Positions 19,743-58,700 of a stretch of DNA of 64,000 nt are shown piece by piece. A model generated the notes under the pieces. That model worked only from the letters and a program-made list of their open reading frames with translations. It did no database searches and had not been told where the DNA came from. The DNA is from Nicotiana tabacum (lineage: Eukaryota > Streptophyta > Magnoliopsida > Solanales > Solanaceae). How positions within the stretch are numbered: the stretch's first letter is position 1; each line of letters begins with the position of its first letter. The stretch is from the NCBI RefSeq assembly GCF_000715075.1, contig NC_134082.1, positions 190,887,948-190,951,947 on the forward strand, read 5' to 3'. A program made the translations under genes and the position numbers.

Positions 19743-19838
19743 GCTAACGGTTTTGGCTATCAATTTAGTTAGTTTTGTGTATTGTTTTTCTTTCCTTCTT
19801 TGTTACTTACTTGTTTGTGTCACTACTCAGGTACCAAC

Positions 19839-25963: not shown

Positions 25964-26164
25964 TGTGATGGTAACCTGCGTCATGTCGCGGCGTTAAATC
26001 AAGCACTTCTTGGGGGGCAACCCATGTGTCTTTCTTCTTGTTGTTTTCTTTGATTTTATTTGTAGTATAGGATTGATTTTTGGGCTAACTGGTTGTGAGA
26101 TGTTGTAGGGATTGTGTTGATGCAGTGCAAGACATAATGAAGAAATTGTTCAGTCTCTGAAGTT

Positions 26165-27055: not shown

Positions 27056-27170
27056 CAACCTTTGAGGACTGTCTGCAACACTTTGATTCTATTCTGTAAT
27101 TTGTTCTGCTGCAATAACTTGAACTGCCTTGATTGATGCTAACAAATACATTGAATGATGTTTGCAGACA

Positions 27171-29113: not shown

Positions 29114-31077
29114 GCCCTGTTCCCAATAGCAGCAGAGCAGACCACCGGGAACCAGTCTGAGGTTCCCGAGCACACAAAGGACCCAAGGACCACCCATGAT
29201 CCTATGCAGACAGACACGACTTAGGGAGTCTTCTATATCCTTTTTCTCTATATTTTTGGTGCTTAGTTAGACTAGTTGGCATTGGCGACAATGCCAGCTT
29301 TCATTTGAGGGGGTGAGCCCTACATTTTTTAGATGACTGCATATATTGTATTTGTTTTATGCTTTCTTGATTTTTCACATTTGGTCTGTATATAATTTGA
29401 TATTTAGTTACTGTTATCGCACTTTTTATCTTTCTTTAGGTCTGTATATAAAATTACAACACATTATATATATTCATCCCCCATTGTATATTCAAATCCC
29501 CTATTGTATATATTCAATTCTATTTTTTGCAAACATTTCTTTTGTTTTTAGCTTCTTATTTATGTTCATAGCTTTTTGTTTTGTTTTGGACGTTTTCAAT
29601 AAGCCTTTGGTTTTCTTAATGCCACGGTTCTTTCCAAAGGTGGAGTGTTGTGTGAACTGGGTGGCTCTTCCCAATGATGGATGGCGTGACAACCTTCTTA
29701 AGGGTTTGAGTCCGTTTTCCTTTTTGTTTTAGTAGTTTGTAGTTAAGGGTACCTCAAGCAAAGCTTCACTTGGGCCTAGCACATTTGCCTTTGATCCCAT
29801 GGTCAAAGACAAACTGTTGAGTTTAGAATGGTGAAAGTCGTGACCTTGAGACTCTTGTGTTGACCGATAATCATCAAGTGGTTTTTCGGGACCATAGTGT
29901 GCTCAAATCGTATCTAAGGTTGTTGTGGGCCCCCGACTCTATATCTTTAGCAATTCCTTAGCTTGTGTGGTGAGTCATTGAATTGCAAGTCCAAGTCTCG
30001 TGCCATTGGTCTAGAACTTGCCCTGAATGTTTGTTGAGGCGAAATCATAAGTGAATTTTGGCTTGAGGCATGATTATAGGCTCTTCTTGATCCAAATGAT
30101 AGTTTGAACAAATTCATAGCCTACCAATGATATGATACCTAGTTAACCCTTTTGAGCCTTAGACTTTCATCTTTCAAGAACCATGATACAAGCCTATACC
30201 CGTTCTAAAAGATACCCTCTCTTGACACCCGATCTTTCCTTTAGCACATAGCAAAAGTATAAGTTTGGGGGGAGAGACGAGGATAGCAACAAAGTGGTAA
30301 AAAGGCACAAAAAAACAAAGAAGAAAAAAGGCAGTGAAAAAGAAAGAAAAGCAAAAAACAAAAAGAATGATCAATGTGAAAAGGAATAAAGAGGGATTCA
30401 AGAAAAGCAAAGAATGAAAGGTGTGCAAAAGTTGAAAAAGGAGAAAAGGTTTGAAAAGCATAAGAAAGAGTGACAATGTGTCTTTCTAACCCCTTAGAAA
30501 AGAAGTGAAACGACTCAAAGAGTCAAGAGAATGTTTGCCAAATGAATCAAAAGAAGTACTTAAGGAAAGATGGAACCCACTTAGATCAAAACATTTCCTA
30601 CCCTAAATCAAAAGCCTTCACAATGACTCCACAAAAGCCCTATATGATATTGAGTTGAATGAAGCTTACATTAGTGGATACTCACATAAGAGGCAAGCAT
30701 ATGGTACTTAGAGCCGGACTTGTGACTTTTTCTTGAGAGAGATGAGCAAATTTCCTTTAACTTCGGTTTGTGTGCCAATATTCTAAAAAGGTAAGGTTTG
30801 CTTAGGGAGAGTTGAGGATGTATGAGTTTGGGTTCCACAATGACCAAAGTAATTGAGAGAGTTCTTTGATGTGTTGAGTCAACTCTTGATGCTCTTGTGT
30901 AACACTTGATCCATGGTTTTTCAAAGGATAAATGTTATTAATGATTCATTTGTATTGAGGGCAATTGTTAGTACCAATTGATGCTAGTTGAGGTTGTTTT
31001 AGGACAGCTGAAAATTTCTTGGATTTTCCCTTAGTGGGTGGGTCTTATTTTGTTTGCTTGAGGACAAGCAAAATCTT
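29114..31077 (+). other. Athila 3' untranslated region
   Basis: About 2 kb with no convincing ORF. It includes a strongly purine-rich, A-rich stretch at about 30285-30480. At about 30258-30272 a purine run TAAGTTTGGGGGGAG nearly repeats the true polypurine tract. Confidence 0.6.
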
Positions 31078-31091
31078 AAGTTTGGGGGAGT
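31078..31091 (+). other. Polypurine tract of Athila
   Basis: TAAGTTTGGGGGAG lies directly before the 3' LTR, as expected for second-strand priming. A near copy lies about 820 nt upstream. Confidence 0.85.
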
Positions 31092-32628
31092 TGATAACTA
31101 AGGATTTTGACGCATTTTATGCTCCTTCTTGCTTCCGCTTTGATTATAAATTCATACAAAATAGTCCTAAAGGCTCATAAGTTGTGCTTGATTGCAGGTT
31201 TGATCAACAAAGTGACAAGATGTCAAAGATCAGCTCAAAAAGAGTGAAACTTGCACAAGTACCAAAGACAAGACAAACTCAAAAAAAACAGGCCTAGTGC
31301 GGTCGCACTACACTTTGTGCAGTCCGCACTAGAGAGGTTCAGAGATTTAGCATTTCAGGCTTCGAAGCAGTGCGGCCGCACTACAATTTTGAGCGGTCCG
31401 CGGTAGACCTCTGCGTCCGCACTCCCATTCTGTGCGGTCCGCAGAGACAAGGTTCAGAGAGATGCCAAGTTCAGAGGTTCAAGCCTGTGCGATCCGCGGT
31501 CGAGTTTGTGAGGACCGCGCTAGAAGCCTCCACGACCGCAGTCCATTTTTGCGGTCCGTGGAGCCTAGGTTCAAAGAGTCAAGATTGCAAGTTCAAGAGC
31601 CTAGTGCGGCCGCACACCATTTTGTGCGGTCCGCACTAACCCCGCCGGGGCAATTTTGTCCAGTTTTTCCAGCTTAATATAAATAGAACCTTTTTCCATT
31701 TTTAGGGCATCAGATATTATCAGACGTTAGTTGCGCTCGTGAGAAGACTTTTCTTTGCCATTTTGGGCATTTTTACTTAGTTTTTATCATTAAATCTTTG
31801 TATTTACCTTAGCAATTAATTAATATGTCTTTATCTTCATCTATTTCTTTGTTTTTCTCTTCAAGCATGAGTAGCTAGACCCATTATCTAGGGCTGTGGC
31901 TCAACCCTAGTGTGGGTAATTGATGGGTGTTGTGATTTAAGGTTAGATTGACTATGAGTGTTTGTTATTTGGGTCAATTTCATGGTTTAATCTATGAATT
32001 AGTGTTTGCAAACACTAGTTTGTGCTAAGTTAACTTGGGTTCTTCTTGAGAAAGAGAGCCTAAGTCTCCGAAATGGACCCAACAAGGAATTGGGATGGAC
32101 TCAAGAGAATTGATAGCCCCAATTAAAAGGTTAAACCTCGAGAGAGTAATACCCGACTTGAACCCCAGTTGCTTGAGCAAATTTGCCTACCCTATTGGTC
32201 TTGAGAAAGTCATTTGGGCAAAATCACTCTCTCTACTGAGAGGTGTGAGAGTGGATAAAATTGTGCAACGGTTATCGCATATTCCCCAATCATGTCAATC
32301 ATTCTTTAGGTTCAATTACCCGTCAATTGGCCACCTAAGAGGATGCCACTACCTTAGTGCCTTTTAAACTATTAGATACAACTTGTAGCAATTTACTCGT
32401 AGTTAATCTAGTAGCAATTATAATTTGTAGCTTGATAATAGTAGAATATAAAGAAAACCCAAAAATGATTAGAAGTGATATTTGGAACAAATACACAATT
32501 CCAACCTAAATAGATACTCGACTCCATTCCTAGCTCTATGTGGAAATCGATCCCGACCCACAAATCGGGTAAAAGACATTGCGACCCTCTCTTCCTACTT
32601 TTTAGTAGTGTGGAGTAGGCTGTGATCA
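31092..32628 (+). repeat. 3' LTR of Athila (1537 bp)
   Basis: Begins TGATAACTAAGG and ends GGCTGTGATCA, followed by the TCTAT duplication. Co-linear with 18200-19718. The main length difference is in the palindrome cluster near 31285-31320. It keeps the canonical TG...CA ends that the 5' LTR has lost. Confidence 0.93.
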
Positions 32629-40380: not shown

Positions 40381-41430
40381 CTGTATACCCAGAACCTCCG
40401 GTTCAGGGTTCAAGAATTCGAGCTTAGAATAATTGTTATATTTGGCTTTATTATCTGATATTTATTACATGTTTTGACATAACGTGCTGCAATGTTTTTT
40501 TTACTGCTTTGATATTATCTGAACTGTATATAAACTGTGCCGAAACCCTTCTCTCTTCACCTCCGGGGAGAAGCTCGCTGGTCGAGACTCCCTATTCTGT
40601 TAGTGTCAATACCCGAAATAAGAAAGAGGACGGATAAGTTACGAAGCCGGACGGCCTTTTGGTTCCCGGTAAGTTGCCCCTCCTCGACTCGAGTTGTCCG
40701 CTCGGGTACACAGTCTAGAACAAATACCAAGGTTTAAACCTAGTATAACTCGACTTCATGCCGGATCCCTAGTAGGAACGCTTATTTGCATCATGTTGCA
40801 TTTGACTTAGGGGACTCAACACAGGGGTTGGGTCCGTCTAGGACAGACAACCTGAAATGGAAAGACCATCATGCTGCATTCCTATCTGTGTTATGCATTT
40901 ATTTGCTTCGGTTCCGCATGTCGACCAGTTCTTAAAAAAAAAAAGGGGAAATAGCAGCGTAGGGGAGATAATTACTTATTTTGGAAAAATAAACAAAAGT
41001 TGCCTTTTAGTCTGATTAAAAAAAAACATATAAAAATTGTTTCTTTTCTTTTAAGAAAAAAGAGGGTATTTATTTCAAAAAAAAAAATTTAAAAAAAATG
41101 GAAAACTCATAATTCAAAAATGTGTTGTTTCTTTTGTAATACCCTTTTATAAATTCGGACTAATAGTCCAAATATTGCAAAAAAAAAACAAAAAAAAATA
41201 TTTTTAGTATTTATCTTTCTCCAAAAACAATAAAAATGCTTATTCTTGATTACTAGGTTTATTTGATTTTTTTTATTTTGCGATATGACCGAACTACGCC
41301 GGTTTGATTCTCGCACGGGGTGAGATACGTAGGCAACCCTCGGCGGGTCCAACCTCCCGTTTTCAAAAAATCTAGATAATTTTAATTTTTTGAGTCTAAT
41401 AAAGTTTATCGCCTTAAATAAATGTGCAGG
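40381..41430 (+). other. Ogre-1 leader between primer site and ORF1
   Basis: Non-coding. It holds several oligo-A runs (about 40935-41200) and, at 41289-41354, the first copy of the repeated structured element. No conserved ORF. Confidence 0.7.
41289..41354 (+). other. ORF-bracketing structured element, copy 1
   Basis: CGAACTACG...TTGATTC, then ATACGTAGGCA. CTACG (41294-41298) pairs with CGTAG (41328-41332). Hairpin A is TCTCGC/GTGAGA inside that pair. Hairpin B is ACCC/GGGT just after GGCA. It sits about 80 nt before the ORF1 ATG. Confidence 0.7.
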
Positions 41431-43479
41431 ATGAGCACGATACAAAATGAATCGTTTTCAATAATGACCAAGATCCCTTTTGAGTTGCGATTATGGTGGA
41501 ACGACTTAGGCAAAGAAGGGCAAGGCAAAGTGAGGAAATATCTGAAAAATCTCCCGGATTTACTAGACATTCAGCCTCGGGGTGATATTATCAGATCATT
41601 GGTCACTTACTGGGACTCGGCGCACAATGTATTCCATTTTTCAAACTTCGAACTCACCCCGACGCTGGAGGAAATAGCGGGATACATTGGGGGTGATGAA
41701 GCTCCGTTAAGGTTCAAGTACTTGATTGCACCTAGAGCCGTCACGGTACACCGATTTTTGGACTTTCTGAAAATACCCCGAACATTTCACCATCCAGATC
41801 TTGCCAAAGGCTTCTGCAGTCTCCATCTCATGTATGCTAGATACGGTCATGAGGGTGGGTTCAATAAGCCGGATTTCAAACTATGTAGTAAAGGCAACCG
41901 GCAAAAATGGGACGAACACAGGTAATTGGCTTTCATAACGGCTTTCTTAGGTCTTATAGTGTTCCCAAGGAAGGACGGCAACATCGATCTAAGAATAACT
42001 GGGGTTGTCAGTACTTTGCTTACCCAAGATAAAAGTACTCTGGCGCCTATGATTATGGCTGACATTTTCCAGGCTCTCACTGTTTGTCGAGCCAGGGGTG
42101 ACTTCTTCGAAGGATGTAACCTATTGTTGCAAGTATGGATGACCGATCATTTATGTCATCGCTCCTCACTTGTGGGTTATGGTTCGCCAGAGAAAACTTG
42201 TATTGGAGAATTCTACACGAGAATCAAAGGGCTCAATTTACCTGAGGGAGTCACATCATGGACCTCATTTCTCCGAACTCTCACTGCCAGCCAAATCCAA
42301 TGGACGCTCGGATGGTCACCTATCGAGGAAATCATATACATGCCGGCAACCCGACCTCACTTTCTGTTGATGGGATTGAAAAGTATCCAACCCTATGCAC
42401 CGTATCGGGTTTTGAGGCAACTTGGGAGGTACCAAGTGGTACCGAAGGATGAAGATTTGAGTACCCAAGTGATTGAAATCAGTCCGCACGGTCTTTTCCC
42501 TGAAGAAGAAATTCGCCAAATCTGGAGTGAATGCCAACATCTGACAGCAAACACTTGTGTGATCGATACGGCAAAAGGGGAAGTCGCCCCAGGATATCAC
42601 GCTTGGTTTAGAGGTAGCCTGTCTTACGAAAGACCGGCTAAGAGGCCGCATCTCAAAGATTTCGTAGAATCATCCCAAGGGCAATGGAACTGGTTAGCAA
42701 AAGAGAAGAGTTATCGAGCAGAGATTGGCGATTTGAAGCTACAAATAGATAGTTTGAAATTCGATAACAGCGTACAAATCGCAGCGAATCGAAGCGAAAA
42801 GAATAGGTTGATCCAAGAGAATGAAGAACTTAAGGCCAAAGTCCAAAAAGTGAGATTGTCTCTTGATGAGCAACCCAGAAGTCAATCAGACCAGCGGTTG
42901 ATAAAGGGTTTGAAAAGAGAGATCACGGAATGGCGAGATAGGTTAGAAGAATCCGAAAAGGTCATGACAGAATTCAAGGCATGGTGGAAAACAAGAGTAG
43001 ATAAGCATCGCCGATGTTTGAACCAATTGAAACGTGATCACGAGAAGGCTGTTTCCAAAATAAAAAGGGAGATGGCTACACTTGAGTTTAAAGCAGTTAA
43101 GCAGGCCAGGGATTTCCAAATGGAGAGTAGATACTGTTACGACTTGTTGGCCCAAATGAAGGAAGAAGTGCGGCAGTTGAGGGATCAGCACATACAGGAC
43201 TCACAGGTATTCAAGACGAGCAGTGATCAGATAAGGCACCTACTCATAGAGAAGAAGCAAACCAGAGATAGGATCAATGCCATTGCCCATGCCATCACCA
43301 GACGATGTCTACGATGTGAGAACATATCCAGCGCTACCGTCCTCTCGGCAGTAATGGGTTATGTCAAGCAGACTATGCACGAGCTGGAGCAACTCGAGAG
43401 GGATCTTACGCCTAGGACCGCGGCGAGGCCGAACGATACCCCGCGGAGACCAATTTTTAAAACCATAATGCATTCATAG
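41431..43479 (+). pseudogene. Ogre ORF1 (function unknown), one internal stop
   Basis: The extra ORF upstream of gag that marks Ogre elements. ATG 41431 (MSTIQNES) follows GTGCAG; an in-frame ATG at 41422 is an alternative. The N-terminal globular part (PFELRLWWNDLGKEGQ, FELTPTLEEIAGYIG, FHHPDLAKGF, AFITAFLGLIVFPRKDG) resembles the plant mobile-type domain found in transposon ORF1 proteins. The C-terminal half (from about 42670) is a long coiled coil rich in Glu, Lys, Arg and Leu (RAEIGDLKLQIDSL, LIQENEELKAKVQKV, GLKREITEWRDRLEESEK). A TAA at 41923-41925 interrupts it, after which the same frame runs open for 517 codons to the stop at 43477-43479. Its biochemical role is not known. Confidence 0.85.
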
Positions 43480-44161
43480 GTCAAACCTGTATTGTAGCAT
43501 CTTCTGCCTGTTTTTTCATCAAGATGATTTTCAGTCTATTTTGAGTCTAGGTTCATTTTCCAAGTTTGCTTTTTCTTTTGCAGAATGTAGCTTGTAATAG
43601 AACATTTCAACAATGAAGAGGTTGTTTCTTTTACGTCCATTTATGTTTTTCGAACTACGTAATGATCTGATTCACGTAGGCATCGTGATACGTAGGCAAT
43701 CCTCATCGGATCCAGTCGCATTTCTTTTACTACGAAAATAAAAAAAATAATAAAAGGAAAACAAAAGAGAAAAAGAAAAGAAAAGAAAAAAAGGGGAAAA
43801 ACTAATAAGAGGAAAAAATGGAAAACAAAAGAGAAAAGAAAACAAAAAAAAAAGGGAAAAACTAATAAGAGAAAAAATGCCGGAATGACGCATGCTCTCG
43901 TAGCAAACATATAGTAATCCACTTAACTGTATAGGTGCATCATGCCCAACGTGAGATTAACTATCTATTATTTGCTGCAGAATTAACCGTGCGTTTGTCA
44001 TTGAGCATTTTCCCAGGGTTTTTTGAAAAGACGGTTGGTTTGGTGAAAGTCTGGCCTCGCACTCATACTTCACGAGATCAAGGAAAGGTGTTCAACTACC
44101 TATTGTTAGGACCAGAAGCAGTACTCACACTTATTTCACCAGGTCAAAAGGAAGTGTGGAA
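43480..44161 (+). other. Spacer between Ogre ORF1 and gag
   Basis: Non-coding, about 680 nt, with element copy 2 at 43651-43718 and then a purine-only-like A/G tract at about 43734-43880. A pyrimidine-rich stretch before gag may hold a 3' splice site (TATTTGCTGCAG at 43969-43980). Confidence 0.6.
43651..43718 (+). other. ORF-bracketing structured element, copy 2
   Basis: CGAACTACGT...CTGATTC, then ATACGTAGGCA. Outer pair CTACGT/ACGTAG, hairpin A TCACG/CGTGA, hairpin B ATCC/GGAT, then CCAGTC. Located between ORF1 and gag. Confidence 0.75.
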
Positions 44162-47100
44162 ATGTCGTCGGAAATTCCATTGCAAACAGTCCCCGTCTCT
44201 GAAGAGAGCTCAATCTCGGCCGTCCTCACACCGGAATCCGCAAATGCGGAGGAAAATAGGATCCTACGGCTCCGCATGTTGGAAATGCTGGATGACTGGA
44301 ACAATGGGAAAGAGCCGCCAAGTGTCGTCCCCGGATTCCCTGAACTATTCTCCAGGTCAAGTGGGACTTCTAATGTTCCCATAAATTACCCTGCTACCCC
44401 ATTTGGGTACCCAGCCACCTCCGCCTTCTCTGCAGGATCACCTTCTGAGCCTCATCCCCGAATGTCGGCCAATGATGCAAGCATGAACATCTTTACTGCA
44501 TCGCCTTGCCCAGCTACGGCACAGCCTGCCACGTACAAGCCAAGCCTTGACTCATCCTCTTTTACATTCCAAGCACCGTCGTTCTCAATGGAACCAAATA
44601 GGTTCGCTACCAGTACTAATCCTCTACCGCCTCAGTACGAGCTTGTACCAGGGCAGGATCAGAACCCCAGAGTTGTAGAACAAAACGAGATGGCCAAAAG
44701 GATGAGAAGCCTTGAGCAAAGTCTGAAGAATATGCAAGGATTGAGCGGGCAAAAGAGCGTCTCTTACGCCGACCTATGCATGTTTCCTCACATACACCTG
44801 CCAACGGGTTTCAAGACCCCCAAGTTTGAGAAGTACGATGGGCACGGTGACCCTATTGCACATCTTAAGAAATACTGCAACCAATTGCGGGGAGCCGGCG
44901 AAAAAGAAGAACTGCTAATGGCATACTTTGGGGAAAGTTTAGTAGGGATAGCCTCGGAATGGTATATGGATCAGGAAATGTCCCGATGGCATATATGGGA
45001 TGATCTCGCCAGAGATTTTGTAAAACAATTCCAGTATAACATCGACATTGCGCCAGACCGAAACTCTCTTTCAAATTTGAAGAAGAAGCCTTCAGAAAGC
45101 TTTAGAGAGTATGCTATTAAGTGGCGTGAACAGGCATCGAGAGTGAAGCCTCCCATGGATGAAGTGGAAATGGTCACTACCTTTCTCCAGGCTCAAGAGT
45201 CTGACTATTTCCAGAACATGATGTCGGCCATGGGTAAGCCATTCGCGGAAGCGATCAAGATTGGAGAGATGGTGGAGAACGGTTTGAAAACGGGAAGGAT
45301 TTTGAGTCAAGCAGCCATAAGGGCAACCTCCCAGGCCGTCCAAAGTGGGTCTGGAGGAACAACAAGGGGGAAGAAGAAATAAGAAACGACTATGGCAGCC
45401 TCTGAAGCAAGGGAGTATCGTCATTCCAGGCCCCATTTTCCGGGAAGAGCCCCACAACACTATTACCCCCATTCAAATTCGGCATATGCTCATCAACCTT
45501 ATATGGTCATGAATGCCCAACCTTATAACCATCCACCACAACAAGCCAACCGAGGCCCAGCTCCACCTCCCAGAAATCAGCCTCACTACGCAACCACTAT
45601 AACCCACAACCCCCGCAAAATAACTACCGCCCCCAAGAGCTACCTCGACGGCGGACTTTCACGCCCATCGGTGAGCCATACTCAACTTTGTTCCCAAAGT
45701 TGGTCCAGTTGGGTTTCTTGCAACCCATCCCTCAAACAAGGCAAAACCCGACATCTCCTTCTTACAAAGCCGGAGTCAGATGCGCCTATCATTCAGGGGC
45801 CGAGGGGCATGATACAAACGACTGCTGGTCATTGAAAAGGGTGGTCGAAAATTTGATAGAGCAGGGGAAAATAGTGCTAAGGGACGAAGAGATCCCGAAT
45901 GTGACTAACAATCCATTGCCCGCTCACAATAATGGGCCGCTGATCGGCATGATTTGTGAAGACAAAGAGTTCGACCCTGCTTTGAAAGCCATAATTGCCA
46001 TTGTCGACACGGGGAAGAGGCCTGAGATAGACCAGAAATCAGAAAAGGGGGAGGAGGCCAAGGTTGCAGAGAGCAAGCTTGAAAAGAAGGTGGAGAAGAA
46101 AGCGGTACCAGCAAAGGGTGGAATTCTTTACATACCGCGAGGTCAAGCCAAGAATACGCAGAACTTCGGGATCAAAAAGACAAAACCTATGTACGTGCCA
46201 AAAGGGGCCTATGTGGTCCGGGGGACGATTCAACCACCTCGGCTGAATGAGCCAGTGGTTATCGGACGCGTGCCACAAAAGCCAATGACCAACCCGACCA
46301 CAGTGCCGTGGAATTATCAAAAGACCTTGGTGATGTATAAAGGAAAAGAGGTCGTGGGAGAACTTCCAGAAAATACTTTCATTAGAGGGTACTCAAATAC
46401 CCAAGAACTGAACAACGCCACACAAAGGCGCTTTCCTCCGAAGAAGCCTGTGAGTGTTGAAGAGGCGGAAGTGTTCTTCCAATAAATGAAGATGCCGGAG
46501 TACGAAGTGATAGATCAGCTGCGCAAGCACCCTGAGCAGGTGTCCATGCTATCATTATTGACAAGGTCGGACGAGCATCAAAAGATCTTACTAAAGACCC
46601 TGAATGAGGCATATGTGCCGGTTGAAACCTCGGTTGAACAATTAGAGCGGATGACAGAAAGATTCTTCGCCGTCAACCAAATCTCCTTCAGCAAGAAAGA
46701 TCTACCCCCGGAAGGAGCAGCACATAACAAGGCTTTGCATTTAACAGTCAAATGCGAGGACTACTATGTCAAGCGGGTAATGTTGGATGGAGGTTCAGGC
46801 GTTGACATTTGCCCGCTCTCCATGCTACAGAGAATGGAAATTGGGACCGGAAGAATCCGACCCAACAATGTCTGCGTAAGAGCTTTCGATGGTATCAAGA
46901 GAGACACCATGGGAGAAATAGACCTGCTGCTGGTCATATGACCAGTCGAATTTCGAGTCACTTTCCAAGTGATCGACATGGACACATCTTACAATTTCCT
47001 CCTTGGCAGGCCTTGGATCCATGCGGCAGGAGCCGTGCCTTCTACTCTTCACCAGATGGTGAAGTTCGAGTGTGAAGACCAAGAGATCGTGGTCCATGGG

Positions 47101-47691
47101 GAAGACGAACATGCCATTTATCGGGACCCATCCATCCCGTATCTTGAACCAAGAGAAGGGAGTGAGCATATGGTATATCAAGCTTTCGAGGTGGTATTGG
47201 CAGAGCAGCACGAAGAGGGAGTACCTTGCCCCCAGCCTTTCTTGTCTAACGCTTCGGTTATGGTGGCCAAAGAGATGATCCGACACGGATTTAGGCCAGG
47301 GAAGGGGCTTGGACGAACCCTTCAGGGAATGACGGAACCCATTACTTTACCAGTCATCAAGAAACATTTTGGACTAGGTTTTAAACCTACTCCAACAGAC
47401 GAAAAATGGGCAAAGAAAAGGAGAAATGAGGGCTGGAAGTTGCCTCAACCACTGCCGGATTTACATGCGACTTTCGTCAGGCCAAGGTACGCTGAAGAAG
47501 AAGATGATGAGGTCTTCACAGCTGAGGAAATCGAGGAAATATGTGGGGCAATGAGGGAAATGCTTTACGAGGTCCACATGGTTCAACCAGGCGAAGGCAC
47601 GAGCACTGCTGAGATGATGTACATGGGGCCAAACGCCAAACTCCAAAACTGGGAGATCACGCCATTCCCAACTAGACGGAAGTCCGGGTAG
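44162..47691 (+). pseudogene. Ogre gag-protease with G-patch-like tail (three internal stops, one frameshift)
   Basis: Structural protein plus aspartic protease. ATG 44162 (MSSEIPLQ). The gag core (FEKYDGHGDPIAHLKKYC, GIASEWYMDQ, FREYAIKWREQASRV) is open to TAA 45380-45382. The same frame then resumes as a Pro/Gln/Tyr-rich linker. A frameshift near 45600 leads to LFPKLVQLGFLQPIP and a CHHC-like nucleocapsid motif (CAYHSGAEGHDTNDCW, about 45778-45825). Stops follow at 46483 (TAA) and 46939 (TGA). The protease has the active site MLDGGSGVDICPLS (near 46780) and the second box [10 protein letters not shown]. It is followed by a G-patch-like segment ([15 protein letters not shown], near 47284-47328), as in some retroviral proteases. 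The frame ends at TAG 47689-47691, which lies inside the predicted intron. Confidence 0.88.
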
Positions 47692-47893
47692 ATCTGTCCT
47701 GCCACCTTTCCTGTATCACAAGTTATCTCCGGGACATGACTTGAACGTTTTCTTCTTTTCAATTGTTGTTCCTGGTTGTAAACGTTGTTGTCTACCAAAT
47801 TTTCCGAAGAAAATATACAAAAAAATCATCATTACGTTCCTATTCTTTCTTTGTTCTGATTTTTATTAGTTTTCCTTTCATCTTCCTTTTCAG
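47688..47893 (+). other. Predicted Ogre intron between protease and pol (206 nt)
   Basis: Donor GG/GTAGAT at 47688 and acceptor TTTTCCTTTTCAG ending at 47893, preceded by a long T-rich tract. The upstream frame enters in phase 2 and the downstream pol frame leaves in phase 2, so removing exactly this segment also removes the gag-pro stop. Ogre elements are known to carry a spliced intron at this place. Spliced and unspliced RNA would then set the gag-pro to pol ratio. Confidence 0.75.
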
Positions 47894-50800
47894 TCCTAAT
47901 AATGCGGCTTTAAATATGACATGCTCGCGGACTTCACGCCCAGATCACAATGAGCTATTTAACTACGAATTAATGAAAGCAGAACCAGAATATGATGCGG
48001 AAGAGGCTTTTAGGGAGATAAACCGAGAGTTGGAATATTTTGAGAATAAACCTAAGCCGAATCTAAATGACACTGAACCGGTAAATTTAGGAACCCCGGA
48101 AGAAATCCGGGAGACCAAGATAAGCATTCACACGGACAAGAAAACGAGAGAGGCGATAATTCAACTTCTTTTCGAATTCAAAGACGTGTTTGCTTGGTCA
48201 TATGATGACATGCCGGGACTAGGTGTCGATCTAGTGGTTCACAAATTGCCAATTCATCCTGATTGTCCTCCGGTTCAACAAAAGCAACGAAAGTTCAAAA
48301 CCGAGGTCAGTGACAAAATTAAAGAGGAGATCACCAAGCAACTGAAAACAGGAGTGATCCGGGTAGTCCAATATACAACATGGTTGGCGAATGTGGTTCC
48401 AGTACCGAAAAAGGACGGGAAAACTCGGGTATGTGTAGATTACTGATATCTGAACAGAGCAAGTCCCAAAGATAATTTCCCGCTGCCCAACATCCACATC
48501 CTCGTTGATAATTGTGCCAAACACGAGATACAGTCTTTTGTATATTGTTATGCTGGGTATCATCAGGTACTGATGGATGAAGAGGACGCCGAGAAAACCG
48601 CTTTCACCACGCCTTGGGGCACCTACTGTTATCGGGTCATGCCATTTGGTCTAAAGAACGCTGGGGCTACTTACATGAGGGCCATTACCGCCATTTTCCA
48701 TGACATGATGCATCAGGAAATAGAGGTGTACGTGGACGATGTAATAGTCAAGTCCAGGACGCAGGATAGTCACATCCAAGACTTGAGGAAATTCTTCGAG
48801 AGGCTAAGGAAGTATGACTTGAAGCTAAATCCAGCCAAATGCGCTTTCGGAGTTCCGTCAGGTAAACTTTTGGGCTTCATCGTAAGCAGGAGAGGTATCG
48901 AGCTAGACCCGACTAAGATAAAATCTATCAAAGATCTACCTCCCCCGAGAACGAAGAAAGATGTGATGAGTCTTTTGGGCAGGCTGAACTACATCAGTCG
49001 ATTTATTGCCCAGCTGACAAGCACGTGTGAGCCCATATTTAAGTTGTTAAGAAAAGATTCGGCGATTAAGTGGACAACGGAGTGTCAAGAAGCCTTTGAT
49101 AAAGTCAAAGAGTACCTTTCGAATCCCTCAGTCTTGGTCCCTCCAGAACCAGGGAGGCCACTTTTCTTGTATCTGACAGTCTTGGAGAACTCTTTTGGCT
49201 GCGTCCTCGGGCAACACGACGTAACCGGGAAAAGGGAGCAGGCGATCTACTACCTGAGCAAGAAATTCACCAGCTACGAGGCCAAATACACTCTGTTGGA
49301 AAAGACATGCTGCGCTCTCACATGGGTTGCTCAAAAGCTGAGGCATTATCTCCAAGCCCACACTACATTCCTCATAAGCAGGTTGGATCCTTTGAAGTAT
49401 ATATTTCAGAAACCAATGCCTACTGGGAGACTGGCTAAATGGCAAATCTTGCTTACGGAATTCGACATAGTTTATGTCACTCGCACGGCAATGAAAGCCC
49501 AGGCGTTAGCAGATCATTTGGCCGAAAACCCGGTCGATGAGGAATACCAGCCATTAGATACCTACTTTCCAGATGAAGAGGTAAACACCGTAGAAGTGAT
49601 CTCGGAGGAAGCTCATGTTTGGAAGATGTTCTTTGACGGAGCCGTGAACGCCAAGGGTATAGGGATTGGGGCAATTTTGATCTCACCTGCCGGTCAGCAT
49701 TATCCCGCCACAGCTAGACTTCGTTTCTTCTGCACAAATAATACAGCTGAATATGAAGCCTGCATTATGGGCATACATATGGCAATCGATCAGGATGTCA
49801 AAGACTTACTGATTATGGGAGATTCTGACCTGATCATCCGGCAAGTTCAAGGCGAGTGGGAAACTCGGGATGTCAAGCTTATCCCATACCGACAACATGT
49901 AGAGGACCTCAGCAAGCGCTTTACCTCAATAGAGTTCAGGTATATTCCGAGGTGTCACAATGAACTGGCAAATGCACTTGCTACTCTGGCTTCTATGCTA
50001 CCCTACCCGGGCAACGCCCACGTCGATCCTTTGGAAATCCAAATCAAGGAAATACATGGTTACTGCAGTGTAATCGAGGCGGGATCAAATACGCAGCCTT
50101 GGTACCATGACATCAAGAGGTTCCTGAAGACGCAAGAATACCCCGAGCATGCTACCGGAGATCAAAAGAGGACCATTAGGCGACATGCAAGTGGTTTCTT
50201 TTTGAGCGGTGAATTGTTATATAAGAGGACTCCGGACCTCAATCTCCTAAGATGTGTTGATATCGAGGAAGCGAGAAAGATCATGCACGAAGTACACGCA
50301 GGTGTGTGCGGACCTCACATGAACGGGTATGTCTTAGCGAAGAAGATCCTTAGAGCGGGTTATTACTGGATGACCATGGAAAAGGATTGCTTTAGCTTTG
50401 TCCGGAAGTGTCATCAGTGTCAGGTGCACGGTAATTTGATTCATGCACCTCCCACGGAACTGCATCCCATGTCCGCACCTTGGCCATTTGTCGCTTGGGG
50501 CATGGACGTCATTGGACCAATTGAACCAAAGGCTTCGAATGGACACAGGTTTATACTGGTTGCCATCGATTACTTCACAAAATGGGTAGAAGCTGTCACT
50601 CTCAAATCGGTCACCAAGAAAGCTGTAGTGGATTTTGTACACTCAAATCTTATCTGTCGCTTCGGTATTCCTGCGACCATCATTACAGATAATGCAGCAA
50701 ACTTGAACAGTCACTTGATGGGAGATGTGTGCGAGCAATTCAAGATTACACACAGGAATTCCACTCCTTATCGGCCAAAAGCCAATGGTGCTGTGGAAGC

Positions 50801-51347
50801 TGCAAATAAAAACATCAAGAAGATTTTGAGGAAAACAATACAAAGTTCCCGACAGTGGCATGAGCAGTTACCTTTTGCATTATTGGGGTATCGCACTACG
50901 GTACGCACATCGGTAGGAGCAACTCCTTATCTTTTGGTTTATGGGACCGAAGCTGTAATACCGGCAGAGGTGGAAATTCCTTCGCTTCGAATCATTGTCG
51001 AGGCAGAAATCGAGGACAGCGAGTGGGTTAAGACTCGGTTAGAGCAATTGACGTTGATTGATGAAAAGCGGATGGCTGCAGTTTGTCATGGACAGTTATA
51101 CCAACGAAGGATGGCCCGTGCTTACAACAAGAAAGTCCGACCCCGGAATTTCGAAGTAGGTCAGCTGGTACTAAGGCGTATTCTGCCGCATCATGAAGAA
51201 GCAAAAGGAAAGTTCGCTCCAAATTGGAAAGGCCCATACATCGTAAGGAAGATATTGCCGAGAGGAGCACTGTATTTAGGCGATATCGAAGGAAATGACC
51301 CCGACACAGCAGTAAACGCAGATGCAGTTAAGAGGTATTACGTCTAA
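47894..51347 (+). pseudogene. Ogre pol: RT, RNase H, second RNase H, integrase (one stop, one lost catalytic residue)
   Basis: One frame to TAA 51345-51347 with a single TGA at 48444-48446, right after TRVCVDY. RT motif A reads FVYCYAGYHQ; the catalytic Asp codon is TAT (Tyr) at 48543-48545. The YVDD box (EVYVDDVIVKSR, about 48725-48760) is intact. Gypsy RNase H follows (KREQAIYYLSKKFTSYEAKY, QALADHLAENP). Then comes the archaeal-type RNase H unique to Tat elements (MFFDGAVNAKGIGIGAI, NNTAEYEACI, GDSDLIIRQVQGEW). Integrase has HEVHAGVCGPHMNGY and CHQCQVHG (zinc), with catalytic Asp in GMDVIGP, Asp in ITDNAANLNS and Glu in NGAVEAANK, then a GPYIVRKILPRGAL tail. No chromodomain. Long intactness outside two changes suggests recent loss. 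Confidence 0.93.
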
Positions 51348-51500
51348 ATCCTACTCCAGTGGTCCTGACACGTTGAAAATGGCGAAGGCGTTTGTTCCCC
51401 ACTACTTCCCAAAACACTACCCAATCCTCTCCACCAACTTTTGAGCCACTTACAAAACAAAAAAAAAAAAAAGAAAACAAAACAAAATTTGATTGAGGCC

Positions 51501-51562
51501 TGAACTACGTTTGACTTGATTCCGAAAGGATACGTAGGCAGCCTCTCCCTGAGGTTCAGTCA
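51501..51562 (+). other. ORF-bracketing structured element, copy 3
   Basis: TGAACTACGT...TTGATTC, then ATACGTAGGCA. Outer pair CTACGT/ACGTAG, hairpin A TCC-GAAA-GGA (GNRA-type loop), hairpin B CCTC/GAGG, then TTCAGTC. Starts 154 nt after the pol stop. Confidence 0.75.
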
Positions 51563-51741
51563 CACCAACAATAAAATCCCATCCACCCTGAAATTGAAAA
51601 CCGGGGCACATCGAGTAGTTGAGAAGTTAGTATCACTACCTCTCTTTACCAAGCACGAGCCTTCAAATCAATTACCAAATATGGTAGGGAATCAATAAGC
51701 GTCACAAACGAAGACTGTCACACTCTGAATTGAGAGAAATA

Positions 51742-51920
51742 AAATGAGAGAGTCTCGGCGGTGAAAACCTTCGGGCACCACGAGGCGACGGGAGTAGAGA
51801 AACCAAAATGAGAGAGCTTGTTTAGTAAAACTCGCAAAGAGTGCTATCAAGCGATGACAGGAAGAGAAATGAGAGAGGTCAGCCAGCGAAAACCCGCAAA
51901 GGGCGCTGTTAGCCGAAAAG
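51742..51920 (+). repeat. Triple hairpin repeat in Ogre 3' UTR (unit about 60 nt)
   Basis: Three units each headed by AAATGAGAGAG, each folding into an outer and middle stem, an AAAA bulge and an inner stem. Middle stems are GGTG/CACC, TAG/CTA and AGCG/CGCT. Inner stems are CC/GG, CTC/GAG and CCC/GGG. Outer stems are CTCG/CGAG, GCTTG/CAAGC and a weaker third. Confidence 0.75.
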
Positions 51921-52351
51921 GAATGACGCCACCCCAAGAAGGTCTCGGCAAAGTTCCACTGGTTTTGGAATCACAGATCTGTTCTGGTTCAGGAAAACGC
52001 AAGTTCATGGAAGGTCGGACGTCCAGTCCAAAGAGCATGTCATGTCATTTAAAGCCAGCGTTATCTTCCTCAGATAAGTCTTTCTCGTCCCGAAAAGGGT
52101 ATTCCTTTTCTGATTTGTTTTCCCCTTCTTTGTTTCTTTTCGAATCCCTTTTGCATTTTAACCCCGAGTTCAGGACACACCGGAAAGAGCAGGTGGCAGG
52201 TTTGTTTGCACGGAATCCCGTCTCATGAAGGAAAGCACCTCATCTCGTTGATATAATTACCCAAGCATGATGAATCATGACGTCCCGGAGTAGAGGAAAA
52301 AGAGAGAAATCTTGAAATCTTCCCCAGCAAGTCCACCTTCGGACAAATCCC

Positions 52352-52620
52352 CCTGTACAAAACCCCACAGAGTCTCTCTTTTTGTACAATCTCCCACAAA
52401 GTATCTCAAGCAAAAAAAAAAAAAAAATCCCTGTTGGAATTTCATCAGCGCATCCCAGCGAGTTCTTTTGTAAATATTCCCCAACAAGCTTACCCCAACA
52501 AACCCTGGGAAACCCGTTTTGAAACCAAAACCCAGCATACCCCATTGTACAAAATCCGCACAAAGAATCCACTTTGTAAATATTTCCCCCACATAGCTTC
52601 CTCTTGTACAAGTTCCCACA
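52352..52620 (+). repeat. Interspersed TTGTACAA repeat in Ogre 3' UTR
   Basis: About six copies of a phrase like TTGTACAAaaTCCCCACAgAG (for example near 52357, 52382, 52469, 52546, 52576 and 52604), some with TTGTAAAT in place of the palindrome. Confidence 0.7.
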
Positions 52621-53061
52621 GAACACCTCCAATAAAATCCCCGTTGAGAACCTTCAATCAAAACGGGACAAAAAGAAAAAGGGCCTTACGAGGCAAATCA
52701 TCACAGAATCCGGAAATACAAGCCTGAGTAGTCTAAAGGTTTCGCCGTTCAATTCGAATCAATGGCGGGACTTCGCAACAGAAGTAAAGACGCAACGAAG
52801 CAATTGGGAACGATCAAGGTCACCAAACCGACCGTCATTTTCGAACTAACAATTGTTCTTTGTCTGAGAAATTGAAACAGGTGTTAATCCAAGACAACCG
52901 TGCAAGAAGCAGGTGTCGCCCAAAGAAGAAGGTACACGGGTACAAGAAACATTTTGGCAATAAGGAATTCACTCGAAAGGTAGGTTTCCACGAAACTCCC
53001 TTTTATCTTCTACTAAAACAAGAAAATTCAAAAAAAGAGGTCGCTTAACTTTGTCCCCAGC

Positions 53062-54990
53062 CAATCAGTATTAGGGTTTTTAAACCCTAAACTGAATTTT
53101 CCTTTTGGTCAGCATTAGGGTTTTAAACCCTAAACTGAACTTTTCCCTTTCAGCCAGCATTAGAGTTTTAAACTCTAAACTGAGCTTTTCCATGCAATCA
53201 GTATTAGGGTTTTAAACCCTAAACTGAATTTTCCTTTTAGTCAGCATTAGGGTTTTAAACCCTAAACTGAACTTTTTCCTTTCAGCCAGCATTAGAGTTT
53301 TAAACTCTAAACTGAGCTTTTTCATGCAGTCAGCATTAGGGTTTTAAACCCTAAACTGAACTTTTTCCTTTCAGCCAGCATTAGAGTTTTAAACTCTAAA
53401 CTGAGCTTTTTCATGCAGTCAGCATTAGGGTTTTAAACCCTAAACTGAACTTTTTCCTTTCAGCCAGCATTAGAGTTTTAAACTCTAAACTGAGCTTTTT
53501 CATGCAGTCAGCATTAGGGTTTTAAACCCTAAACTGAACTTTTTCCTTTCAGCCAGCATTAGAGTTTTAAACTCTAAACTGAGCTTTTTCATGCAGTCAG
53601 CATTAGGGTTTTAAACCCTAAACTGAACTTTTTCCTTTCAGCCAGCATTAGAGTTTTAAACTCTAAACTGAGCTTTCCATGCAATCAGCATTAGGGTTTT
53701 AAACCCTAAACTGAACTTTTTCCTTTCAGCCAGCATTAGAGTTTTAAACTCTAAACTGAGCTTTTTCATGCAGTCAGCATTAGGGTTTTAAACCCTAAAC
53801 TGAACTTTTTCCTTTCATCCAGCATTAGAGTTTTAAACCCTAAACTGAATTTTCCTTTCAGCCAGCATTAGAGTTTTAAACTCTAAACTGAGCTTTTTCA
53901 TGCAATCAGCATTAGGGTTTTAAACCCTAAACTGAATTTTCCTTTCAGCCAGCATTAGAGTTTTAAACTCTAAACTGAGCTTTTCCATGCAGTCAGCATT
54001 AGGGTTTTAAACCCTAAACTGAACTTTTTCCTTTCAGCCAGCATTAGAGTTTTAAACTCTAAACTGAGCTTTCCATGCAATCAGCATTAGGGTTTTAAAC
54101 CCTAAACTGAACTTTTTCCTTTCAGCCAGCATTAGAGTTTTAAACTCTAAACTGAGCTTTTTCATGCAGTCAGCATTAGGGTTTTAAACCCTAAACTGAA
54201 CTTTTTCCTTTCAGCCAGCATTAGAGTTTTAAACTCTAAACTGAGCTTTTTCATGCAGTCAGCATTAGGGTTTTAAACCCTAAACTGAACTTTTTCCTTT
54301 CAGCCAGCATTAGAGTTTTAAACTCTAAACTGAGCTTTTCCATGCAATCAGCATTAGGGTTTTAAACCCTGAACTGAGCTTTTTCATGCAGTCAGCATTA
54401 GGGTTTTAAACCCTAAACTGAACTTTTTCCTTTCAGCCAGCATTAGAGTTTTAAACTCTAAACTGAGCTTTTCCATGCAACCAGCATTAGGGTTTTAAAC
54501 CCTAAACTGAATTTTCCTTCTAGTCAGCATTAGGGTTTTAAACCCTAAACTGAACTTTTTCCCTCCAGCCAGCATTAGAGTTTTAAACTCTAAACTGAGC
54601 TTTCCCATGAAATCAGCATTAGGGTTTTAAACCCTAAACGGAACTTTTTCCTTTCAGCCAGCATTAGAGTTTTAAACTCTAAACTGAGCTTTTCCATGCA
54701 ATCAGCATTAGGGTTTTAAACCCTAAACTGAATTTTCCTTTTAGTCAGCATTAGGGTTTTAAACCCTAAACTAAACTTTTTCCTTCCAGCCAGCATTAGA
54801 GTTTTAAACTCTAAACTGAGCTTTTTCATGAAATCAACATTAGGGTTTTAAACCCTAAGCTGAGCTTTTCCATGCAATCAGCATTAGGGTTTTAAACCCT
54901 AAACTGAATTCTTCCTTTGTTCGGCGTTAGGTTTTTTTTAAACCCCAAACCGAACCTCTCCCCAGCTAGCCGGTGTTAGGGCTCCAGCCC
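53062..54990 (+). repeat. Tandem array of telomere-like palindromes, about 44-bp monomers in an 88-bp higher-order unit
   Basis: Roughly 43 monomers. Type A contains GGGTTT-T-AAACCC (with TTAGGG and CCCTAAA at its edges, like plant telomere repeats). Type B contains GAGTTT-T-AAACTC. The two alternate through most of the array, joined by linkers gaactttttcctttcagcca and gagctttttcatgcagtca. The right end decays after 54905. Confidence 0.95.
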
Positions 54991-55555
54991 TGAACTGAAC
55001 ATGTATATCCTCTTTCATCAATTTTATGAACTTCCTGGTGAATAATTAACGAAATTTTCCTAGTGAAACTGGGGCAGAAAATTTCATTCGTTTGTTTGTT
55101 TTCTCCCGCAGGTCTGACCTCGAGCCACATGGATCGAAATGACCCACGAGATAAATCCTAGTTCGGAATCAAAGAAGAAGAAAGACAAAAGAAGATATCC
55201 CGAGATATCAGAGTAAAGGGAAAGCAGATCGACTCCAACATTTGACTAAGGTCCTGAACTCTGCCAGTCACATTGTATTCGGTATCCCGGAGATTAAACA
55301 AGTCGCCGCAACTCGCAAGCATCAAGATTCAGATCAGAGTCTACAAGCAGAATCAGCTAAGACCCAAGATCAAGTCGTAAAAGAATCATAGATAGGAATC
55401 TTGTAACTAGCAGTTGACATACATATAAGTAGTTAGTTCAGTTTCTAATTTTCGTTTGGTTGTAATAAGGCGGTCAGTGACGTAGCAGTGACAACAACAG
55501 CAGCGGTAGCAGCAAGCATTGCAATCCCATGGTAGTCCCAGCTACCAAAACTTCC

Positions 55556-55625
55556 CGAACTACATTGACCTGATTCCTGTTTAGCCCAGGATATATAGGA
55601 AATCTTTGAAGCAAGATTCGGTCAG
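55556..55625 (+). other. ORF-bracketing structured element, copy 4 (diverged)
   Basis: CGAACTACAT...CTGATTC, then ATATATAGGAA. The outer pair CTACAT/ATATAG has one mismatch. Hairpin A TCCTG/CAGGA and hairpin B ATCTT/AAGAT are perfect, then CGGTC. It lies about 110 nt before the 3' LTR. Confidence 0.65.
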
Positions 55626-55722: not shown

Positions 55723-55737
55723 ACAAAGAGGGGCAGC
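55723..55737 (+). other. Polypurine tract of Ogre-1
   Basis: ACAAAGAGGGGCAGC directly precedes the 3' LTR start TGTGAGCACG. Confidence 0.75.
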
Positions 55738-58700
55738 TGTGAGCACGTGATTTTTGTTTCGCACGACAATCGCTCCAAAAGGAAATAAAAAATAATAATT
55801 GGCCCTGCTGTACAAATTTTGGATTTCTGTGCGGCACCTTGTTGATTTATTTGTGACTCCGGCCCATTTTTATTTATTTACTTTATTAAAACAAAATTCA
55901 AAAAAATATATGTGTCCTGCATAATTCGAACCGTAATCCGGTCGTTGAATAAGAAAATCATAAATAGGCATCTTCGTCCGTGATTTTGATTTGTTTGATT
56001 TTACCTGTTTTGAAATATTTTAGTGTGTGTGCAAATAATTGTATTGAGTGTGTATTTAATTTTTAATTTTGATTTTTTGCTTAGTTTTGTTTTTAAAATA
56101 AAAAAAAAGAAGAAAAAATCAGCAATTATTCCGGATTGGGCCAATTTATTAAAATTGGCCCAAACAAACAACGTTCAAACCAAACCTGCCCGGTCCAGGC
56201 CACCTAATGCCCAGGATGTCCAAACGACGTCGTTTGAGTCATGCCTGATCTGGGCCGTTGATCTCAGATTGATCAACGGCCAAGATTAATTACCCATAAC
56301 CCACCAATAAACCCGACCCGTCTCACCCGGACTGACCCCAACCCTCAACCCTCAAAACGACATCGTTCCATTTAAGCCTTCAGATCCAGACCGTAGATCT
56401 AGATTGATCTAACGGTCGAGGTTCACCCACCCACTAACTATATAAACCATTCACCATACCCTGCCCCCCCTAGCCAACACCCCCGCCTTCGTCTTCACCA
56501 AACCCATCCCCTTCAAACCCTAGCCGCCCCTGCACACCTTCACCAGAAACCCGGCGGCCTGAACGCCGGTGACCTCCACCTGAACACCATAGAACCCCCA
56601 TGCCATCCTGAACCTAAATCTACCAACCACACCCTTCGAATCCTACCCCACCTGCTCGAATCTTCATTTGAAGATTCGAGTCGGAACCTAATCTACACCA
56701 ATCAACCCAAGCTTCACACCAGACACTCCCCAGACCCCCCTCGTGACCAAACCATACTTGGTTTGGTCCGAATCTGACCAGGGGAGTATGAATCCCGGAT
56801 CTGAGTTTGGAACTTTGTAGTTCTTCATCACTGGCCTATGTCCGTCCAAACCAAAGAGATTAAGGTCTAATGGACCTTAATCGAAGTGTTTCTCATCTGA
56901 GAAACACTTCGATTAAAGTCTGTTCACCCTTAAGAAAGTCTGTCCAAGTCCGAGTCAAGGGTTTTGATTTTTCAGGACTTGAGGTGAGTCTTGCTTGCTT
57001 TCTTTATTTCTGTTTGGTCCATGTGAGTGATTGAATGGCTGTTCATGTTTTGTTTCAATTTGTATCTTTGAATTTTTACCAACTTCTGTTTGTCCACTTT
57101 GCTTGAACCACGGTGTCTGTTTGAACCCCTCCTATTCTGATAAGGCATGTGTACTGGTCGTGTTCCAAATTTGTATTCATTAACTGATTCCTTGAAGTAT
57201 AATTTTATTTAGCCAGTACAATTCAAGTCATGTGCCCTATACTTTGAATGTCTGATTTTTGGCTACGATTGTGTATGTTAATGCTAATATAGTCGAGTCG
57301 ACATGAGTCGTCAATTAGTTTCAACTGCCTGAACAAAATAAATCGATTTGCTTCTGTTGAACATTTGCCTGAATCAATTAAGAACCAAGTTCAGTTACTT
57401 ATAGTTGTTAATATGATTTCAGAAACCTAAGGCTTGATCTGTAATTGAAATCTGAGTTGATAGCATGTGCACTTGTGCACAGCATGTGCATTGTGCACAG
57501 CCTGGTCCCTGTACAAAGGGCTTTTGATTTAGAAATGGTTTGACAGCATATGCTGTCAGATATATTCTACTACCCATGCTTGCTTTTAGTTAATAAAATA
57601 GGAAAGGAAAGCCTGCCAGGGAATATTGATGGGGTTATATACTTAAATAACTAATTGGGATCTGAAAAGGTAAAAGACACATGGGAGGGGTACTGTGACA
57701 TTTGGAAAAGAGGCTGTTAAAAGAGATGGTGTCGAGGCTTATAAAGGGGACAGAATTAGAGGCAGAAAAGAGGAAGGAGGAGGAAGATATACATACACTG
57801 TGAGAATAAAAAAAAAGAGATACAGAGAGAGGATCAGACCTGAAAAGAAAATATACACACACAGTGAGGGGATTGGGAACTTTAAGAGCTGAAAAGGAAA
57901 AACAAAAACACAGATAGAGAGAGGTTAAGGGATAGAAGCTATACAACCAACAATCAGAAGCTTTTTTCCTCCTATTATTACTGGGTTTCAGTTGTTAAAC
58001 CTGTTTCAAATCAATTCTGATTCTTTGAAATTCCAGTTGTGTCTATTAGTCGAGTGTTTTCATTGGTTTACTACTGGTCTGGTCTGTTTGGATTTCTGTT
58101 TCTATTCCACTGGGTGTTGCTGCTATTTGGCTATTACTTTCTATTGGCCATATTTGCATCTCTGCACTCGAGCCTGTTTCTTGCTATTTGTTTTGCCTGC
58201 TGCTATTCTGCCCTGTTGCTGTTGGTGCTGTTACTGCTGCTGCATTTGTTCATTGTTACTCTACTGATTGCCCTTTTCTTCAATTGCAAATATTCCCAGG
58301 TACACAACCTTTGAACCTTGTATTGTTGAAAGTTTGAAGTTGAAGCAGAAATAAAGGAATGAACGCCAGTTTATGTTATAGCATTGGTGTAAAAAGATAG
58401 TTCGAATGTTGTTTGGGCCTGTATTCTTACTGTGAACTGCAAATATTCTGTAGGAACTAGCATACATTTTGTTTAAGATGAACTGTTAGATAGCATGGCT
58501 CAATAGTAATGACAGTATGACATGGACAGCATGTTTTGATTTAGTATACATTCAGTTCAAGTATAACACATGTTTGATTTAGTATGACTGTATAACATAG
58601 AGTCATGGTAAGCATTGTATGTATTTTGCCTAGACCACTGAATTGACAAAACTGCGATACTGGGGTCCGGGATAAATGTATCCCCAAACAAACTCCCATA

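Follow-up and report, generated by a model that had tools for sequence, protein, structure and literature searches.

The 64,000-nucleotide stretch of Nicotiana tabacum DNA considered here (contig NC_134082.1; "the window") holds an Ogre-type long terminal repeat (LTR) retrotransposon, in which one short element occurs four times outside the open reading frames (ORFs). Comparison of many copies shows this element to be a putative cis-acting RNA module that Ogre-type elements keep at four constant positions outside their coding sequence, and each copy is predicted, again by comparison, to fold as a compact four-helix pseudoknot. The preliminary description of the stretch, made from the letters alone, had located four copies at these places, and all four are present on the + strand. 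They are given below with their helices (P1 to P4) and with scores from a covariance model of 17 seed copies, which include the window's four, so that their own scores are high by construction.

C1, 41291..41354, + strand, before ORF1, 74.0 bits: GAA 41291-41293; P1 5' strand CTACG 41294-41298; P2 5' strand GGTT 41301-41304; TGATT 41305-41309; P3 hairpin 41310-41324, then ATA; P1 3' strand CGTAG 41328-41332, then GCA; P4 hairpin 41336-41348, then CC; P2 3' strand AACC 41351-41354. L001, whose sequence is the same, has all of P2 paired.
C2, 43652..43717, + strand, between ORF1 and gag, 79.4 bits: P1 43655-43659/43691-43695; P2 GATC 43664-43667 / AGTC 43714-43717; TGATT 43668-43672; P3 43673-43687; P4 43699-43711.
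C3, 51502..51561, + strand, 155 nt past the pol stop, 60.0 bits: P1 51505-51509/51533-51537; P2 GACT 51513-51516 / AGTC 51558-51561; TGATT 51517-51521; P3 CCGAAAGG 51522-51529; P4 51541-51555.
C4, 55557..55623, + strand, before the polypurine tract (PPT), 58.7 bits: P1 CTACA 55560-55564 / TATAG 55594-55598; P2 GACC 55567-55570 / GGTC 55620-55623; TGATT 55571-55575; P3 55576-55590; P4 55602-55617.

Run over the whole 64 kb with filters off, the model places these four at 58.7-79.4 bits and the next match at 12.3, with no fifth copy above that score. The anchor pattern GAACTAC..TACGTAGG matches three times in the window (C1-C3, not C4), compared with none in 100 shuffles. The window's own 4.0-Gb genome was searched for motif patterns; the core GAACTACG..GATACGTAGGCA has 45,147 matches (22,925 + 22,222) and TGATTC..GATACGTAGGCA has 51,476, and the reversed pattern has none in either case. 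With these controls at zero genome-wide and the anchor pattern absent from the window shuffles, a chance origin was rejected, as was a tRNA identity, no tRNA being found. A weak look-alike in the LTRs (39904 and 59426), considered as a fifth copy, does not appear among the model's hits even with E allowed to reach 10, and we take it to be a chance resemblance.

The order of the module is GAA, 5' strand of P1, 5' strand of P2, TGATT, P3 hairpin, ATA, 3' strand of P1, GCA, P4 hairpin, YC and 3' strand of P2, with GAA at the GCA position in most C4 copies. The junctions are well kept, and P2, P3, P4 and the terminal loops vary. In the P2 helix, which is not included in the covariance model, the four nucleotides before TGATT pair with four that lie two bases past the P4 hairpin, and the helix crosses the CTACG/CGTAG stem of P1. 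The preliminary description had the frame right, but the AGTC or GGTC with which it ended each copy is the 3' strand of P2, whose partner lies in what had been taken as a spacer of about 9 nt; its structural model thus lacked the pseudoknot. Its two hairpins, our P3 and P4, stand as described except in C3, where the second is longer than stated (GCCTC/GAGGT, the first pair being G-U). The single mismatch that it saw in the outer stem of the fourth copy is also there, in letters that read CTACA/TATAG and not CTACG/CGTAG.

Within the window P2 is GGTT/AACC in C1, GACT/AGTC in C3 and GACC/GGTC in C4; in C2 (GATC/AGTC) three of four positions pair, with one mismatch, and sister copies such as L028 have GATC/GGTC. 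The types seen among parsed copies include GGTT/AACC, GGTC/GACC, GACT/AGTC, GACC/GGTC and GATC/GATC. P2 is fully paired in 46 of 59 parsed copies, compared with a mean of 26.5 and a maximum of 37 when the 3' ends are re-dealt (2,000 shuffles); over 23 distinct combinations 73 of 92 pairs form, against a shuffled mean of 62.8 and maximum of 72.

A wider test used alignment A3, with 98 distinct rows from 78 chosen sources, near-identical or overlapping loci being excluded. Thirty of the sources were fetched for a mutated P1, one row is cut off, and one row (L093) is out of register in P2 and P4. The copies were found through the patterns GAAC.ACG and GATACGT.GGCA, which fix those letters and leave TGATT and helices P2-P4 free. 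Over the four helices 92.8% of cells are paired, compared with 80.9% after shuffling, and 285 cells are changed on both sides, compared with a shuffled mean of 112.6, a number reached by 0 of 500 shuffles; when the partner strand is slid, pairing falls to 20-39%. Both hairpins covary strongly in these 98 rows. For P2 alone the paired fraction is 92.8% against 77.1% shuffled and at most 44% slid, with 107 both-side-changed cells against 47.8. A second sample, A4, comprises 20 C4 copies for which the PPT, rather than any letter of the motif, served as the selection criterion, with one spurious 7-bit row that is included in covariation counts and excluded from wobble and junction counts. Here 96.2% of cells are paired (88.4% shuffled), double changes number 31 (8.6 shuffled), and P2 is fully paired in 18 of 20 copies. 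The selected RNA structure with retained pairing that the preliminary description proposed is thus strongly supported by covariation in many copies, and the lack of covariation that it had named as contrary evidence was not seen, kinship being uncorrected in this comparison.

P1 behaves differently from the other helices. In the C4 sample it is mostly CTACA/TGTAG, and 19 of 20 copies have A-U as the fifth pair where the other classes have G-C, which reads as one class-level compensatory change. Where the second base of P1 is changed (269 genome copies; control 1), the old partner is, by our reading, kept in 99 of 100 among the matches listed; within classes P1 is without apparent covariation, C4's single class-level change being all that is seen. 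The constancy of P1, GAA, ATA and GCA in A3 proves little, because the search patterns partly fixed those letters. TGATT, on which the patterns put no constraint, is unchanged in 89 of the 98 rows, and the junctions of the C4 sample are equally steady: GAA in 19/20, TGATT in 17/20, and ATA, G[AC]A and the TC before the 3' strand of P2 each in 20/20. G-U pairs outnumber A-C mismatches in P2-P4 together, by 76 to 42 in A3 and by 10 to 4 in A4, as expected if the working molecule is the + strand RNA.

Some of these measures are less favourable. For P2 alone the pairs with a double change number four, an unremarkable count that 376 of 500 shuffles reach, and the nine pair types, reached by 37 of 500, are not striking; these two counts are the measures least affected by relatedness. 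Pair types in A4 are at the shuffled level, 473 of 500 shuffles reaching the count. The wobble bias is modest, being absent from P2 alone in A3 (G-U 21, A-C 22) and reversed in P1 (G-U 3, A-C 11). Could the module then be a repeat spread by recombination or insertion, its pairing kept by common descent only? All copies in the genome are related, and every shuffle control leaves that relatedness in place. Common descent nevertheless sits poorly with the excess of both-side changes in A3 and with the collapse of pairing when the partner is slid; each class, moreover, holds its own place, and a copy linked to a hAT transposase (below) pairs with new letters. Within the limits of the controls used the common-descent-only reading is refuted, and we give it hardly any credence.

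Placement is as regular as the fold. Among 78 copies at 56 loci, none falls within a stretch that matches a piece of an Ogre ORF on the same strand. C1-type copies lie 74-513 nt upstream of the ORF1 start (13 cases, including three P2 variants), C2 162-294 nt downstream of the ORF1 end (10 cases) and C3 33-273 nt downstream of the pol end (eight cases, one of them a P2 variant), and no class was found at another's place among these placed cases. A C4 copy is present in all 20 chosen 366-nt stretches that end at a PPT, 89-101 nt before it; these stretches come from one contig, among the matches listed, and were mostly picked for motif copies upstream, so that the figure is not a genome-wide rate. 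In the window C4 stands between a repeat region and the PPT. The preliminary description had named random placement relative to ORFs in related elements as contrary evidence; instead the places are kept even in C2 cases whose ORF1 match reaches no more than 41-80% identity, and copies are retained in stretches that showed no ORF1.

An additional class, C0 (P2 GGTC, P4 AACC/GGTT), was noted at L024, L033, L037, L072, L082 and L088. Its copies lie upstream of other 5' copies, in stretches in which no ORF1 match was seen, and raise the number of modules before gag to as many as three (L024-L026). Long A-rich and purine-rich tracts follow several module copies, for example at window positions 43720-43880.

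Conservation was compared for the 79 of 103 copies with enough flank, 66 of them in five classes. Within a class the whole motif is 79-95% identical, compared with 60-76% for 120-nt flanks and 60-64% for shuffled flanks; with pattern-fixed letters removed, the motif is 74-95% identical and flanks of the same length 58-81%. The gap between motif and flank is clear for C1 and C3/C4 and smaller for C2 and downstream of C0 and C3.

Three elements in which C2 and C3 are only 1.3-2.0 kb apart bear on whether the module serves the ORF behind it. Between and just after C2 and C3 they give no capsid, reverse transcriptase or integrase match (tblastn with the window's ORF pieces, E <1e-3), in a search that covered only a small part of the ~4-6 kb between C3 and C4; remnants amount to 36% identity over 109 aa in one and to 27 aa in another. 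They nevertheless keep C1-type copies upstream (L013, L015, L018) and C4 before the next PPT (L226, L227, L228), the copies being taken, by order and strand, to belong to one element each. Since elements without gag-pol between C2 and C3 keep their modules, these would act in cis and not as ORF-start signals; on this reading the module would be needed in cis, and not for translating the ORF behind it.

One copy was met outside Ogre elements. In 257 Gb of prokaryote contigs the core pattern GAACTACG..GATACGTAGGCA matches three times; two of the matches are bacterial, lack TGATT, score 12.6-14.1 bits and were rejected. The third lies on JAFUBK010000065.1 (L061/L093), from a Bacilli assembly of roe deer gut. 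This contig looks chimeric, with ORFs that are bacterial-looking by eye joined to the end of a hAT transposase (Dimer_Tnp_hAT, E 1.2e-21), and the hAT part is probably plant DNA from the deer's diet. Between the hAT stop and the start of the motif, which is on the same strand and scores 38.3 bits, lie 53 nt, and its helices recur with new letters and small shifts: P3 is CCTC/GAGG, P4 is CTTAATT/AATTAAG one base later, and P2 is GGCCTT/AAGGCC after three bases. Its 13 pairs are reached by 0 of 20,000 letter shuffles of the tail. Viral contigs gave 0 and 1 matches to two strict patterns; a looser pattern found 94 stretches, and the 80 of these that were scanned all score <=17.2 bits. When viral contigs were searched with the pol protein, 3 pattern matches came up and no relative.

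As a separate observation, among the 3' flanks of hAT genes in the window's own genome (L104, L108, L110, L208-L222) two families have a possible pseudoknot of similar strand order just after the stop, as in L110 (CTAC..CCTA..two hairpins..GTAG..TAGG); copies within each family are too alike for a pairing test.

What might such a module do? Its fixed non-coding places, its apparent need in cis, its several copies and its kept folded core point to the handling of the element's own RNA. Among the candidate roles, one in RNA export or retention override would come first, an exonuclease block second and packaging third, translation and self-cleavage fitting less well. The reading placed first, which we hold only tentatively, is that host factors for RNA export, or for an override of retention, would dock on the module. 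The folded core would bind a factor of the host's RNA-handling machinery, and with several such sites on each transcript a very long, intron-containing, only partly spliced RNA could leave the nucleus and escape retention or decay, as with the constitutive transport element (CTE) of Mason-Pfizer monkey virus (MPMV), the RNA transport element (RTE) of intracisternal A particles (IAP) and the MusD transport element (MTE). The likeness lies in a cis-acting structured RNA within a retroelement whose unspliced RNA needs export. The Ogre intron is spliced out in a subset of transcripts only (PMC6317226), and intron-bearing RNA must therefore reach the cytoplasm. A pseudoknot is also reported in the MTE (PMC12786077), as predicted here for the Ogre module. 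The known elements differ in using the animal NXF1 pathway, whereas the Ogre module is 60-67 nt long and repeated at four gene boundaries. A module beyond reverse-transcribing elements, as in the hAT-linked copy, counts for a role in export, as one case.

We also consider, with somewhat greater doubt, a new fold-dependent family of RNA modules (P1-P2-P3-P1-P4-P2), present in Ogre and hAT transcripts and using or resisting a host RNA-handling pathway. Several facts tell against the export reading. Known CTEs lie mostly near one RNA end, not at each gene boundary, and an exonuclease block, too, is in keeping with a free fold whose core and 5' flank are conserved. The hAT link is a single case on a chimeric contig, where a nested neighbour is possible, and no module copy was found in 20 hAT 3' flanks of the window's own genome (proteins 29-33% identical). 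Plants, finally, are reported to rely on TREX, whereas known CTEs work through the NXF1 receptor (PMC12786077).

The alternative of an exonuclease block, in which the knot would halt 5'-to-3' decay at the GAA/P1 edge, so that decapped or sliced element RNAs would lose their ends no further than the next module and downstream pieces would stay stable, is possible but rather unlikely. Here the model is the plant viral exonuclease-resistant RNA xrRNA-D of Tombusviridae and Luteoviridae, located in intergenic regions and 3' untranslated regions (UTRs) (PMC6299227). The Ogre module resembles it, in other letters, as a compact pseudoknot with near-invariant loops and junctions, covarying helices and intergenic or 3' UTR places, an analogous feature on the evidence of the same source (PMC6299227). 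The 5' flank GAA, kept in 19 of 20 C4 copies, would fit as well, and so would the repetition of the module along one RNA and its presence behind a hAT stop codon. The strand order, however, is unlike that of xrRNA-D: the Ogre module's 5' pseudoknot strand precedes the inner hairpin, and its second hairpin lies inside the pseudoknot, whereas the extra stem-loop of xrRNA-D lies after it; the arrangement of P1, P2 and pseudoknot that marks xrRNA-D was not found, and there is no Rfam family match. Because C1 lies about 0.9 kb downstream of what we presume to be the primer-binding site, trimmed RNA could not be reverse transcribed, yet the elements without gag-pol between C2 and C3 still keep C1 to C4. 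Modules retained in cis by elements that probably rely on proteins supplied in trans would also suit signals for packaging or dimerisation, distributed over the genomic RNA and recognised by Gag or by the ORF1 protein, as would several copies per genome and a near-constant distance from C4 to the PPT. We regard packaging as unlikely, since a copy after a hAT transposase gene (one case) has no packaging use and spliced RNAs would also carry copies outside the intron.

A translation element, whether internal entry, a cap-independent enhancer or a shield after stop codons, is a poorer candidate still. C1 does precede ORF1, C2 precedes gag just past the ORF1 end, C3 follows the pol end closely and the hAT copy follows a stop. 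Internal entry would nevertheless call for each copy at a short, regular distance before an ORF, and this is not what is found: C3 follows pol with no Ogre ORF match behind it, C4 precedes the PPT, the distance from C1 to ORF1 varies from 74 to 513 nt, and some copies remain in places that gave no ORF1 or no gag-pol. The internal translation start that the preliminary description listed among candidate roles is thus disfavoured, two of the four copies having no Ogre ORF behind them and copies persisting in three elements that lack gag-pol between C2 and C3. Self-cleavage at each boundary by a ribozyme like that of hepatitis delta virus (HDV), as in R2 and other retrotransposons, is very improbable. 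The P1, P2, P3, P4 strand order is that of HDV-like ribozymes, but the core of P1.1 and a conserved P3 and L3 was not found: no constant P1.1 partner was seen by eye, and neither the sequence nor the length of P3 and its loop is constant. P1 has 5 bp, the letters 5' of it are kept, and TGATT and ATA, between P2 and P3 and between P3 and P1, are conserved inserts that HDV-like ribozymes are not known to have. There is no Rfam ribozyme match, and four cuts would destroy the genomic RNA. HDV-like ribozymes of retrotransposons are treated in PMC3774820.

Neither databases nor the literature covered here describe the module. Rfam 15 gives no match in the window at the gathering threshold, and on nine short loci seven matches at E up to 10, the best at E 0.085, all far below gathering scores. 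PMC6317226 (on Ogre) lacks the words hairpin, stem-loop, secondary structure, pseudoknot and RNA structure, and PMC11963269 (on Retand) the words hairpin and secondary structure; titles and abstract openings of open-access papers, among the matches listed, hold no description of such an element.

The landmarks of the host element are as follows.

41422..43479, + strand: ORF1, in two stop-to-stop pieces, DUF7745 / plant mobile domain
44162..45382, + strand: gag, Retrotrans_gag match
48447..51347, + strand: pol, part with reverse transcriptase, RNase H (RH), archaeal-type RNase H (aRH) and integrase (INT), matching RVT_1, RT_RNaseH, RVT_3 and rve
55725..55740, + strand: junction AAAGAGGGGCAGCTGT, edge of the 3' LTR and landmark for C4, the PPT being inferred from place

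The junction recurs letter for letter 21,332 times across the genome, against 1 for its reversed control. By its domains the host is placed with the Ogre lineage of Tat Ty3/gypsy elements, having two features of Ogre elements, the first of which Retand also has. In the pol part RVT_3 (396-514) lies between RT_RNaseH (235-339) and rve (682-777), and an aRH between RH and integrase is common to Ogre and Retand (PMC6317226). ORF1 carries the plant mobile domain PF10536 (E 1.4e-13), found in the extra ORF of 57% of Ogre elements. Between pol and the 3' LTR, at 53057-54900, lies an array of ~44-45-nt repeats in which AGGGTTTTAAACCCTAAACTGA alternates with AGAGTTTTAAACTCTAAACTGA; parts are palindromic, and C3 and C4 flank it. 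Elsewhere in the window, at 18199-31845, a second long direct-repeat pair ~12.9 kb apart probably represents LTRs, and the covariance-model scan found no module copy >12.3 bits in that region.

Export of LTR-retrotransposon RNA has never been directly studied in plants, according to a 2025 review (PMC12786077). The module would offer a short, defined way in to the handling of a giant, partly spliced element RNA, with natural compensatory variants at hand, and since its core exists in tens of thousands of copies a binding host factor should be easy to look for. The motif may also serve as a sensitive marker for Ogre-type elements, including those without coding sequence. If the proposed module family is real, few structured RNAs in a plant genome would exist in more copies.

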